This document shows, in pieces, positions 10,610-14,633 of a stretch of DNA of 46,342 nt. The stretch is from Bacteroidales bacterium (GTDB lineage Bacteria; Bacteroidota; Bacteroidia; Bacteroidales; Tenuifilaceae), in NCBI GenBank assembly GCA_025361485.1, contig JANYLA010000046.1, positions 1 through 46,342 on the forward strand. The letters run 5' to 3'. The notes under the pieces are model-generated. The model had not been told where the DNA came from, searched no databases, and saw only the letters and a list, made by a program, of their open reading frames with translations. A program made the translations under genes and the position numbers. The first letter of the stretch is position 1. Each line of letters begins with the position of its first letter.

Positions 10610-11560
10610 CTAAAACCCTTGCTTTTCCTTTAGATAAAGACTATCGAGTTTTTCAATACTTTGAGTCCCTAATGGAAGTAAAATATTTGTAGAGTCCGTT
10701 TCCCATTTAAAAAACAGATTACACCTCTGAAAATCAACACACCAATTAAGGTGAGGCTCAACAATCTCTTTGGGTGATTCTAAGCCATTGTGTTTAAGCA
10801 TGCTTGGAATATCGTTACTAATCTTTGAGTTTGTTTTATCGGCAAAGGCTGTCTTAAGCACAAAAACACCATTAAGGGAAAGCGAATTAATAAAAGCATT
10901 CTTCGATATCGCGGATTGTTGAACATCCAAGGGCTTTATTCCTATAGCGCCTCTTAAACCAATAATGTAAATTCCAAGAAACAGAAGAACTGAAAGAGAT
11001 CTCAACCAAGTACTCTGAATATAAACCCACTTCACTTCCTTACGAAAAAGCCACTTCAACAGGAAGAAAAGAAGAACAGCAAAAATCAGCAAGGATAAAA
11101 GAATCAGAATTACAGGAAAGTCGGTCCTAACCGTTTTCAGTACGGTATTAGTATCATTCTCTACAATCCCGAATAACAGAACACTTATCCGAGTATTAAA
11201 AAATTTATAAAAATTAAAGTCGATTACAGAGATCAGTGAAATAATTGTTAACACAAACAATCCGTAATATAGCGACATGCGATAATAAAATCCATAAATA
11301 ATCTTATTGCTGTTATTTAAAAGTTGTAATAAACAAAGAAGACATAAGGGTAGGAATGCAAAGGTCAACACTTTGAAGTCGAATTTCAATCCAAAAACAA
11401 AGGCATAAATAACGTCTGGCCAACTGCTGCTCAAATCATTAAAATCTCCGTAAACAAAAAGAAAAGCCAATCGTGAAATCAAAAACAGGAAGAGGCCAAC
11501 CAGAAAGAGCCATATTAGATATCTCACTGAAGATAGAAAGTTCTTGTATCGTTTATCCAT
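10610..11560 (-). CDS. LTA-synthase-like membrane protein, N-terminal half only (sulfatase domain missing)
   Basis: Protein of 316 residues with five hydrophobic helices in the first 210 residues. The region from RGAIGIKPLDVQQSA through INSLSLNGVFVLKTAF resembles the membrane half of Bacteroidota LtaS/OpgB-type phosphoglycerol transferases. Full-length members are about 600-650 residues and carry an extracytoplasmic sulfatase-like domain with a catalytic Thr and metal ligands. Here the frame stops (TAG) just where that domain should begin, and the 248 bases to the next gene cannot encode it in any frame. The last 35 residues do not resemble the family. It is therefore a truncated, probably inactive gene or a stand-alone membrane remnant. 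A TACCTTTG box lies 23 bases before the ATG, so it may still be transcribed. Confidence 0.75.
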   Translation of the reverse strand: MDKRYKNFLSSVRYLIWLFLVGLFLFLISRLAFLFVYGDFNDLSSSWPDVIYAFVFGLKFDFKVLTFAFLPLCLLCLLQLLNNSNKIIYGFYYRMSLYYGLFVLTIISLISVIDFNFYKFFNTRISVLLFGIVENDTNTVLKTVRTDFPVILILLSLLIFAVLLFFLLKWLFRKEVKWVYIQSTWLRSLSVLLFLGIYIIGLRGAIGIKPLDVQQSAISKNAFINSLSLNGVFVLKTAFADKTNSKISNDIPSMLKHNGLESPKEIVEPHLNWCVDFQRCNLFFKWETDSTNILLPLGTQSIEKLDSLYLKEKQGF

Positions 11561-11732: not shown

Positions 11733-13631
11733 TTAGAAACCAATCCCATATCTTTTACATTTAAGATATAATGTATTACGGCTAACACCTAATTTTCGGG
11801 CTGCCTTACTCATATTCCCTTTCATTATTCGAAGTGCATCAATTATTGCCTCGTGCTCAATTTCCTCAATGGATCTGATACTTTCAACCGCCTCTCGTTG
11901 CTGGCTAAACAGATACTTTTTCTTAAATTCACGTTCATTCTTAACATCGTTGCCAATATTCCCATCAACACTCACAACATATTCGATGAACTTTGATAGT
12001 TCACGCACATTCTGAGGCCACTCATAACGCGCAAGAATTCGAATTATTTTTTTGGTCAAAACAGGTTCCTGCTTTCCAAGTTCACGAGCCTTAATCTGCA
12101 AATAGTGCTTAATAAATAATGGAACATCGTATCTACGATCTCTCAACGGGGGAATCGAAAGCGGATTCTCCGTTAGTATATAAAATAGGTCGAGTTTGAA
12201 TTTACCTGCCTGAATCAAACCTCTTAAATCCTTACTCGACGATGCAAAAACACGAACATCAACTTTTATCGACTTATTCCCACCAACCCGAGTTATCACA
12301 CCTTTTCTTATTGCAGAAAGTAGTTTATCCTGTAATTCTAAAGGAAGATTACCAACTTCATCAAGATAAAGTGAGCCTCCATGCGCCAGTTCAAACTTTC
12401 CGGGCTGTGCAGCTCGTTTAATACCCGGGAAAGTTCCCTCCTCGAACCCAAATAATTCACATTCAATTTCGTTCTGAGGGATTGATTGCAAAGAAATCTT
12501 TACAAATCCATTCTCACTTCTTACACTTGCGTTGTGAATTGCCTGAGCAAAAACCTCTTTTCCAATCCCAACTTCGCCAGATATAAGCACAGAAGATGTT
12601 TCAGTGGCAATCTTTTTTGCTAATTCAACTGTTTTTTTAAAAGGAGCTGATATGCCAATTAAATCACCAAAATTGTACGATGCCCAATTACCTGTAAAGC
12701 GATTTACTACGTTATTAACCTTTTTTAAATCGCGAAAAGCAAGTATTGCACCATTCACTGTTGCATTAGGAAGAATAACAGGGGCTATGCTAAGCAGATA
12801 GTCTGATATGCCGGGTACGTTGATTAAATCGACATTTATATTCTCAATCTTATTCCCAAGCTTAACCTTTTGCCATATTTCATCCCATCCTGGCAAAATA
12901 TTTTCAATTCGCGAACCAATAATCTCATTCTCAATTACCCCAAAATATATTGCAGCCTGACGGCTTATGTTCTTAATCTCTCCGATATTATCAACCGTTA
13001 AATTTGCAAAAGGATGCTGATTAAATACTACATTCTGATAATCAATGGCAATCTGGAAATCCGATTCTTTTTTGATAAATGCTACGTTTTGATTTATCAA
13101 ATCGGAAGCAATACTGACAAGTTGCAAAGTATGATCGCAAACCGCAGATTTTAAAACCATGCAACACAATGCACCTATTGATTCTCCATTGGTATTACAA
13201 ATAGGAGTGCCAATGGCAGACCATTCATCATTTATAGAAGGAATAATTGATTTACCGTCAACTCTTGTTATTTTATTATCGATTACAGCACCACCGATGG
13301 CTTTGGCTAAAATAGTTTCATCATCGGGATAAGTTCCTGCAAAAATAAAATTCTCTTTCAACTTGATTACAATATTTTCGTCTCCAAATACTTGGACAAT
13401 ACATCCAACCTCATCTGCAATAAAAAAAACCTGATTGGAACGATCTGAATATTTTGCAATTTGATGAATCAAATTATCGGCAATTCTTATAAGGTAAACT
13501 GAACTATCGAGTTTTTCTTGAACCTCCTTGCCAGTAAGAATTTTTTTCGCAAACACCTTTTTTAATTTCTGCTCGAGGCTAAATCTCTCATTCGTCATTT
13601 CAGCCTCAACAACTTTTTTCTTTCGTCCCAT
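11733..13631 (-). CDS. Sigma-54-type AAA+ transcriptional regulator (AcoR-like) with altered GAFTGA loop
   Basis: Regulator of 632 residues: a GAF-like sensor (about 55-190), a PAS domain (about 200-310), a sigma-54 interaction AAA+ domain (about 325-550) and a C-terminal Fis-type helix-turn-helix (about 590-630; MSKAARKLGVSRNTLYLKC). Walker A is GEVGIGKE (352-359) and Walker B includes D424-E425; the arginine region PPLRDRRYDVP is kept. The loop that contacts sigma-54, normally GAFTGA, reads G399-T-F-P-G-I404, and the sensor I motif reads ASSSKDL rather than ATNRDL. These changes suggest either specialised promoter activation or loss of sigma-54 contact. The GAF ligand is unknown. The gene is divergent from mnmD, with a dyad in the 330-base gap, and ends in a strong hairpin. 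Confidence 0.9.
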   Translation of the reverse strand: MGRKKKVVEAEMTNERFSLEQKLKKVFAKKILTGKEVQEKLDSSVYLIRIADNLIHQIAKYSDRSNQVFFIADEVGCIVQVFGDENIVIKLKENFIFAGTYPDDETILAKAIGGAVIDNKITRVDGKSIIPSINDEWSAIGTPICNTNGESIGALCCMVLKSAVCDHTLQLVSIASDLINQNVAFIKKESDFQIAIDYQNVVFNQHPFANLTVDNIGEIKNISRQAAIYFGVIENEIIGSRIENILPGWDEIWQKVKLGNKIENINVDLINVPGISDYLLSIAPVILPNATVNGAILAFRDLKKVNNVVNRFTGNWASYNFGDLIGISAPFKKTVELAKKIATETSSVLISGEVGIGKEVFAQAIHNASVRSENGFVKISLQSIPQNEIECELFGFEEGTFPGIKRAAQPGKFELAHGGSLYLDEVGNLPLELQDKLLSAIRKGVITRVGGNKSIKVDVRVFASSSKDLRGLIQAGKFKLDLFYILTENPLSIPPLRDRRYDVPLFIKHYLQIKARELGKQEPVLTKKIIRILARYEWPQNVRELSKFIEYVVSVDGNIGNDVKNEREFKKKYLFSQQREAVESIRSIEEIEHEAIIDALRIMKGNMSKAARKLGVSRNTLYLKCKRYGIGF

Positions 13632-13961
13632 TTAATCAATCGCTTTATAGAACAATTATTTAACAATATATGAAAATCTTCTTAAAATTACTAGAAGTAT
13701 ATATGTTTATACCACATAAACGATCTAATGTGTCAAACTAGATATTAAATTTGACAAAATGAAGATAAGGCTAGATTAACAATAAATTATTGAAAGCAAA
13801 AAAACAATGCTACATTTTTTCAAAGAAAGATTACAATAAAATTCACATATCCAACAAACATATTTACCGAAACTCGGAAAGGAATTAATATACGTATTTT
13901 TTCTCAGCAAAAATATATAATTTATCAAAGTTTAAGAACCTATTTCAAATTAACTCTTTTC
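13632..13961. other. 330-base intergenic region between divergent genes
   Basis: AT-rich region between the divergent regulator gene and mnmD. It must hold both promoters, but no TAnnTTTG box or -24/-12 element is evident on either strand. The only structured element I see is the dyad at 13731-13756. No RNA gene or credible ORF was recognised. Confidence 0.6.
13731..13756. promoter_or_regulatory. Dyad TGTCAAA-N12-TTTGACA, possible operator
   Basis: Seven-base perfect arms (13731-13737 and 13750-13756) around a 12-base centre; 10 of 13 positions are symmetric across the whole dyad. It lies about 100 bases upstream of the AAA+ regulator start and about 205 bases upstream of mnmD. The position fits an enhancer/operator site for the regulator itself, but a chance match in AT-rich DNA cannot be excluded. 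Confidence 0.3.
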
Positions 13962-14633
13962 ATGAAAACAACATCACCCATTGTAGTTCAAACAGCCGAC
14001 GGTTCACATACACTGTATGCTGAACAATACGAAGCACATTACCATTCATTGAATGGAGCCATACAAGAATCACAGCATATTTATATTAAAAACGGATATG
14101 AGTATTTGCCAATAAATGGGGCAGTTAGCATACTTGAAGTAGGACTTGGCACGTGTCTAAATGCCGCATTAACAGCGATAAAAACAATTGAAAGAAAACA
14201 AAAAACATCCTATATCGGTGTAGAATTGCACCCTTTAGAAGATAATATTTTAGCAAAACTAAATTATTATTCAGTCCTTAGTAAAAAAGAGTCGGAAGCT
14301 TGGGGAAAGATTGTTGATGCAAAATGGGGTGTTGAAAATCCAATAAATGAATTCTTTTATTTGACAAAACTTCATGCCGATATTTGTACACTCAACCTAT
14401 TAGGTACATACGATTTAATTTACTTCGATGCATTTGCTCCTGAAGACCAACCAGAGGTTTGGTCTGAAGAAATATTCGAAAAAATATACAAATCGACAAA
14501 CAAGGACGGAATTCTTGTCACCTACTGCTCAAAAGGAATCGTAAAGCAAGCGCTCAGAAATGTTGGTTACAAAGTGGAAAGATTGGCTGGTCCGCCTGGT
14601 AAAAGGCATATTCTAAGAGCGATTAAACTTTAA
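13962..14633 (+). CDS. mnmD: tRNA 5-aminomethyl-2-thiouridine methyltransferase, MnmD type
   Basis: Methyltransferase of 223 residues matching the stand-alone MnmC-like (DUF752/MnmD) family. It has the AdoMet-binding strand ILEVGLGTCLNAALT (about 58-72), the YFDAFAPEDQPEVWSEEIF motif (about 153-171) and the C-terminal GPPGKRHILRA. It should complete the mnm5s2U34 modification of tRNA wobble uridines by methylating the aminomethyl group. The FAD-dependent MnmC(o) half found in enterobacterial fusions is absent, as expected for this lineage. It appears monocistronic, and about 150 bases separate it from the FKBP gene. Confidence 0.88.
   Translation: MKTTSPIVVQTADGSHTLYAEQYEAHYHSLNGAIQESQHIYIKNGYEYLPINGAVSILEVGLGTCLNAALTAIKTIERKQKTSYIGVELHPLEDNILAKLNYYSVLSKKESEAWGKIVDAKWGVENPINEFFYLTKLHADICTLNLLGTYDLIYFDAFAPEDQPEVWSEEIFEKIYKSTNKDGILVTYCSKGIVKQALRNVGYKVERLAGPPGKRHILRAIKL

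Follow-up and report, generated by a model that had tools for sequence, protein, structure and literature searches.

The 632-residue AAA+ regulator encoded at 11733..13631 (minus strand) of the window, a 46,342-nucleotide stretch of DNA from a Bacteroidales bacterium of the Tenuifilaceae, has an AcoR/DhaR-like architecture (diverged GAF-PAS, AAA+, and Fis-type helix-turn-helix [HTH]; assigned from the open reading frame [ORF] and Pfam). On sequence comparison it is a paralogue of AcoR/DhaR-like sigma-54 activators, and we show on the same basis that it belongs to a conserved clade that has lost both its sigma-54 loop and its trans-acting arginine finger (R-finger), in which the HTH is conserved and whose sister group is canonical. 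The protein is likely to be a regulator of the same kind as TyrR, DhaR, or VpsR, independent of sigma-54 and probably poor in ATP hydrolysis.

Domain Architecture and Motif States

Pfam searches match the window protein to Sigma54_activat (PF00158, E 4e-50), the AAA lid (PF25601), and the strongly conserved Fis-type HTH (PF02954, HTH_8 1.8e-13; residues 588 through 628, 11748..11870); these and all further features of the protein lie on the minus strand. The best NCBIfam match is DhaR (NF008485) at 304.6 bits, far below the 551 cut-off for a DhaR equivalog. The N-terminal sensor region (residues 1 through 190, 13062..13631) appears to be a diverged GAF domain, which reaches only E 0.05 in the window protein. 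It is followed by a PAS-like region (residues 195 through 318, 12678..13049), for which a Pfam search of the window protein itself returns no PAS match; PAS_9 is matched in the orthologue L072 (E 1.5e-4, under the gathering cut-off). In the canonical relative L079 both GAF and PAS exceed their cut-offs, and the homology extends over the full length.

Within the AAA+ domain, Walker A (GEVGIGKE, residues 352 through 359, 12555..12578) keeps its lysine (K358), and Walker B is intact (D424-E425, 12357..12362). The sequence-only reading had described both as kept, along with the Fis-type HTH, and had read the L1 loop that replaces GAFTGA as G399-T-F-P-G-I404 (12420..12437); the 632-residue translation and the Pfam matches bear this out. 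It had also counted the arginine region as kept, which was wrong. The R-hand (RxDxxxR, as defined in PMC3419264) reads KLDLFYI by alignment (K479-L-D481-L-F-Y-I485, 12177..12197), and the R-finger position, R168 of PspF, is I485. Solved NtrC-family chains (4l4u and 1ny5) read FREDLYYRL where the window protein reads FKLDLFYIL. The sensor I stretch ASSSKDL (residues 463 through 469, 12225..12245) had rightly been called unusual, with S466 aligned to the canonical asparagine. S380 (12492..12494) aligns with N64 of PspF, the switch asparagine, and the GNVREL of canonical proteins is QNVREL here (Q540 for G). An AlphaFold2 model built from a three-sequence alignment was unusable (mean pLDDT 43.8, pTM 0.27).

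The reference set for these motif states comprised 31 canonical AcoR-like relatives. Left out of this set, and of the 37-row tree described below, were L007 and L014 (which duplicate the window gene), the truncated L018, L011 and L012 (whose contigs, judged by length and match, are those of L015 and L016), NtrC-type EBPs (enhancer-binding proteins) below 250 bits, and the long-branched L067, which reads GAFTDA and keeps the R-finger. The R-finger position is arginine in 31/31 canonical relatives and isoleucine in all four full-length proteins of the window genus. At sensor I, the four genus proteins have the serine of S466 against asparagine in 28 and lysine in 3 of the 31, and at the switch position serine (4/4) stands against asparagine (31/31). 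The six other full-strength Sigma54_activat proteins of the window genome, a count that excludes two weak matches inside one 853-residue ORF, all keep the R-finger and the loop threonine at position 4. Three of these six have D or H at the switch position, and serine occurs there in ten GSFPGA EBPs with an intact R-finger (see below), so S380 is weak evidence.

What loss of the R-finger may entail can be gauged from PspF. Substitutions of R168 are reported to leave ∼1% of Vmax or less (0.11 to 0.43 vs. 39.5 per min), and the mutants to be constitutive hexamers; R168K binds sigma-54 with ADP-AlF with no productive remodelling (PMC3419264). PspF R162K retains some remodelling at 1.9 vs. 39.5 per min (PMC3419264), and E108Q, which is defective in hydrolysis, is described as remodelling fully (PMC4132715); loss of ATPase activity thus need not end remodelling.

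The Altered Loop across the Genus

The regulator was found in 5/5 genomes of the genus in a search of 27 genomes of the family. The four full-length proteins read GTFPGI (window), GVFPGI, GVFPGV, and GVFPGV, and the fifth copy (G023) is cut off by a contig end ahead of the loop. Loop length, G1, F3, and G5 are retained in all four, with proline at position 4. The sequence-only reading had asked whether GTFPGI is conserved and had noted that a canonical GAFTGA in close orthologues would point to a single decayed copy; GxFPG recurs in 4/4 full-length genus proteins, and GAFTGA occurs in 0/3 full-length close orthologues. Position 479, lysine in the window protein, is arginine in one of the four. 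The Walker A lysine and the Walker B Asp-Glu are retained throughout the genus proteins, and the AAA+ domain of the window protein is 84 to 85% identical to those of L015 and L016.

For L016 and L017, which are 98 to 100% identical by domain, dN/dS (Nei-Gojobori) is 0.015 for the AAA+ domain and 0.014 for the HTH; this is the one degenerate pair free of saturation, the other clade pairs being saturated or nearly so and left unused. Taken with the four GxFPG loops, these low values indicate that the loop is a stably inherited genus trait and no single decayed copy. The L016/L017 ratios further argue that the AAA+ domain is being kept and is not decaying freely.

Diverged Relatives and a Canonical Sister Group

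Two divergent relatives were found in two other genera: L023 (in genome G003, 36% identity) and L043 (in G022, 28%). The loop of L023 is an unrecognisable NHKPHL, with P at position 4 nonetheless; that of L043 is a shortened, unrecognisable stretch in which the alignment happens to place T at position 4. All six proteins have another residue in place of the R-finger (I in four, T in L023, L in L043). L023 has in addition R for the Walker A lysine and N for the Walker B aspartate, and L043 has E-A in place of the Walker B D-E. The HTH core SRNTLYLK is identical in all six proteins, across the three genera.

With the motif columns removed from the alignment, the six proteins form one clade (support 100/99), which survives removal of either long branch (SH-aLRT 99 each) and is recovered when the tree is built from just the N-terminal (99) or just the C-terminal (89) part. 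Its sister group consists of the canonical EBPs L019 through L022, which belong to the same family (98 in a quick tree; 100/96 for the corresponding motif-free split), which are 38 to 39% identical to the window protein over its full length. No further degenerate full-length member appeared in samples of the order (393 genomes) or the class (395 genomes), in which three candidates were scored per genome, a depth at which weak degenerate members could be missed. A repeat of the order search returned 28 long matches at the same 28 places as the first, and 19 more matches covering the AAA+ part of frames of roughly 460 residues.

Gene order was compared at these loci. In the window the regulator is divergent from a methyltransferase gene (13962..14633, plus strand; PF05430), which we take to be mnmD and which marks the locus. 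L043 likewise adjoins mnmD divergently, followed by an FKBP gene and a gene that we read as SSB-like, as in the window; this shared arrangement supports its membership. In G022, the genome of L043, the divergent regulator/methyltransferase pairing is at L077 (47% identity). L023 does not lie beside mnmD, the mnmD locus of G003 being L125. Elsewhere in the family, 18 further mnmD loci showed no such regulator in the flank available, some flanks being short. L023 and L043 have in common a neighboring gene for a 726-residue protein without a Pfam match, which we read as lysine 2,3-aminomutase-like.

One could suppose that the regulator is a functionless pseudogene in decay. The progressive loss of motifs on the long L023 and L043 branches would fit such a history; the six full-length clade members, on the other hand, have no internal stop, the L016/L017 ratios are low in both AAA+ domain and HTH, and the HTH core is invariant between genera, and we regard decay as highly improbable. 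The same progression can be read as a graded decommissioning of an EBP in the Bacteroidota, in which the loop and the R-finger were lost first (genus g1) and the Walker residues and the whole loop later (L023 and L043), while the AAA+ core and the HTH stayed under selection; the ring would then be a static, ATP-binding or ATP-free scaffold that organises DNA at housekeeping promoters. We put this series forward tentatively, as a possibility that we rate below even chances.

Sigma-54 in the Clade Genomes and Proline Loops Elsewhere

The rpoN gene, whose presence the sequence-only reading had proposed to check, occurs in 7/7 clade genomes: in the window genome with activator-interacting, core-binding, and DNA-binding domains, and in the six others as recognised by the DNA-binding domain. 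The regulator therefore coexists with a sigma-54 system that looks to be in working order. G026 also has a second, partial Sigma54_DBD match (C12:211857-212048; 24 bits, just over the family cut-off) in a 258-residue frame.

To place the proline loop in context, a DNA pattern for FG[FYHL]xxGxFPG was run over 395 genomes of the phylum, its fixed residues making the outcome a sample and no census. It matched 26 places in 25 genomes. With phmmer, 11 of these places prove to be EBPs, namely the window protein and ten from a single other genus (L149 through L158; family f197, genus g417), a group unrelated to the window clade. These ten read GSFPGA and retain the R-finger, the Walker A lysine, and the Walker B Asp-Glu without exception; the sensor I asparagine is present in nine (L151 has S), serine occupies the switch position in all ten, and rpoN is matched in 9/10 of their genomes. 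Two of the ten look like response regulators. Proline at position 4 can thus arise without loss of the R-finger, and the GSFPGA proteins are a candidate for a working proline loop. It is the combination of Pro-4 with R-finger loss that sets the window clade apart.

These data bear on the possibility that GxFPG is itself a working, lineage-specific sigma-54 interface, with the holoenzyme still activated through a co-adapted loop. Such an interface could draw on the rpoN of the window genome with its activator-interacting domain, would account for the retention of loop length, G1, F3, and G5 in all four genus proteins, and gains some plausibility from the GSFPGA proteins, in which intact ATPase residues and rpoN suggest that a proline loop may be tolerated somewhere. 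It has to contend with the absence of the R-finger from all six clade members, and of the sensor I asparagine with it; with L023 and L043, which have no recognisable loop; with the six other full-strength EBPs of the window genome, whose threonine indicates that this genome's sigma-54 has not generally shifted to a proline loop; and with PspF, in which the loop threonine is reported as critical (PMC2941729, citing earlier work). Since a changed interface would by itself leave the loss of ATPase residues unexplained, we consider this reading improbable. The sequence-only reading had left two options, this interface and a regulator that no longer uses sigma-54. The former is disfavoured; the latter is supported by the loss of loop, R-finger, and sensor I asparagine and by the Walker losses of the diverged members.

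Canonical Sisters at Hydrogenase Loci

The sister proteins L019 through L022 keep GAFTGA, the R-finger, and sensor I, and are encoded beside Fe-hydrogenase genes, two in each of three stretches and one in L080, where the stretch ends. Their loci (L078 through L081) also carry genes for a SpoIIE-type phosphatase, a repressor, presumably Rex-like, and an iron alcohol dehydrogenase in 3/4 (Pfam on the L079 members). Downstream of the regulator, all four have a -24/-12 type element, TTGGCAC-N5-TTGG, itself preceded by 17-bp near-palindromes of the type TGTCATAAAATAGTACA, two or three per locus. Such elements usually have TTGC where these loci have TTGG. The -24/-12 pattern was relaxed to admit the TTGG form after the canonical loci had been inspected, so the four matches are not independent of the pattern. 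The adjusted pattern matches 4/26 order-level loci (L044 through L069), the match at L052 lying inside the regulator gene; neither of two AOR-type loci (L041 and L042); and L076 once, inside the regulator gene. We consider an AcoR-like hydrogenase regulon likely in the family at L078 through L081. A further EBP paralogue (GAFTDS and GAFTGS, R-finger kept) lies divergently beside an aldehyde ferredoxin oxidoreductase gene at L082 and L083.

The same elements were sought in the window genus. The -24/-12 element was unmatched in four genus stretches (L072 through L075) and in the 330-bp gap that separates the window gene from mnmD. Best scores for the 17-bp motif were 10.5 in the window and 11.0 to 12.9 in L072 through L074, against 15.4 to 21.3 at the canonical sites, which score high by construction since the matrix was built from them. 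Over the five genus genomes the 17-bp pattern matched 13 places, vs. 12 for the reversed control, and the PAS-hydrogenase of the canonical loci was not found in these five (G023 being 67% complete). Inheritance of the hydrogenase regulon was considered and rejected: of eight genomes searched, only G022 has an orthologue-like PAS-hydrogenase match (64%), the others reaching 38% at most.

A regulator without catalysis of its own could nevertheless tune sigma-54 promoters as a dominant-negative or bridging partner, by entering mixed rings with an intact EBP or by occupying its enhancers. The high AAA+ identity between the window protein and L015/L016 despite the missing catalytic residues would suit such a role, as would an HTH recognition helix that resembles that of the canonical paralogues; G022 and G003, moreover, each hold a degenerate and a GAFTG-type paralogue. 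Against it, no full-length canonical partner is among the matches listed for the five genus genomes (with G023 incomplete as above), the hydrogenase locus of the canonical paralogues was not found in them, and the enhancer pattern exceeds its reversed control there by a single place. We judge a partner role of this kind unlikely.

Comparison with Other GAFTGA-Less Regulators

The window clade combines EBP homology, a disrupted sigma-54 loop, and, to judge from the genus, stable inheritance, which is the combination expected of regulators of the TyrR, DhaR, and VpsR kind. VpsR has a receiver-type N terminus. Among the structure matches it is a distant relative of the window protein (7v2b, E 3e-34), and VpsR of Vibrio cholerae (VspR in PMC10274813) is, like the window protein, an EBP homologue without GAFTGA. 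TyrR and DhaR of Escherichia coli and HupR of Rhodobacter capsulatus likewise pair EBP architecture with a changed GAFTGA and are reported to be sigma-70 dependent (PMC3162934). The resemblance has limits: according to PMC3162934, the loops of DhaR, TyrR, and VpsR carry small deletions, whereas the window protein keeps the loop length, has substitutions within it, and has lost the R-finger.

The NtrC proteins of R. capsulatus and Caulobacter also lack GAFTGA. They are described at sigma-70 promoters, as is VpsR and as we propose for the window protein; unlike the latter, both are response regulators with loop deletions (PMC10274813). Their reported use of ATP varies, R. capsulatus NtrC requiring binding without hydrolysis, Caulobacter NtrC binding and hydrolysis, and VpsR no ATP (PMC10274813). 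A caution comes from Caulobacter NtrC: although it lacks GAFTGA, its mutants without DNA binding are reported to be able to promote expression of sigma-54 genes (PMC12421884). Proline at loop position 4 is by itself not new: a 2011 survey describes ∼110 EBP homologues with minor GAFTGA deviations, in which Thr/Ser-4 to Pro, the change seen in the window loop, is among the preferred ones (PMC3162934). A narrow literature search found no paper on such loop- and R-finger-less proteins in Bacteroidales. The nearest canonical proteins are L019 through L022, which differ from the window protein in their retained GAFTGA, R-finger, and sensor I and in the -24/-12 type element and near-palindromes downstream.

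Because the loop and the arginine are lost and the protein is kept in the genome all the same, it is probably now an ordinary DNA-binding switch. We envisage an AAA+ domain that may bind ATP weakly and oligomerise while hydrolysing little; with so little hydrolysis, the sigma-54 holoenzyme would not be remodelled. The DNA-bound protein would act at housekeeping-sigma promoters, steered by its GAF/PAS-type sensor domains. Our guess leans somewhat towards repression over activation, and includes repression of its own gene through a 26-bp inverted repeat.

If annotated from its domains only, the window protein is called a sigma-54 activator, and its genes would be assigned to the wrong regulon. 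The clade offers a graded comparison between sister groups (intact; loop and R-finger lost; Walker residues lost) for the transition from activator to ordinary regulator, and the GSFPGA group, with its intact R-finger, provides the contrast for the effect of Pro-4 alone.

A Candidate Operator and Neighboring Genes

Upstream of the regulator, at 13731..13756, lies the 26-bp inverted repeat TGTCAAA-N12-TTTGACA, a weak candidate operator that can be aligned in all five genus genomes, ∼100 to 125 bp before the start codon. It is exact in the window and G024, with one change in G023 and G025 and three in G026. The arm columns are invariant at 10/14 positions, compared with 42/138 of the other upstream columns, and 4/138 sliding placements do as well. 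Across ten genomes, with at most one mismatch, the repeat is not enriched (15 places vs. 27 for the reversed control; in G025 alone, 4 vs. 3), and of the 11 copies found elsewhere than at the locus, 8 fall within ORFs. The conservation of the arms is at most a modest signal for a putative self-regulatory operator. An exact second copy in G024 (L128, C44:45056-45081) falls inside a 633-residue ORF that is ATPase-like by eye, and is probably there by chance.

The window also encodes a 316-residue membrane protein without a Pfam match at 10610-11560 (minus strand). Its orthologue in G024 (L072, 4637-6691) has 684 residues and a Sulfatase domain; the window copy has no counterpart to the C-terminal portion, and the gap to the next gene is only ∼250 bp.
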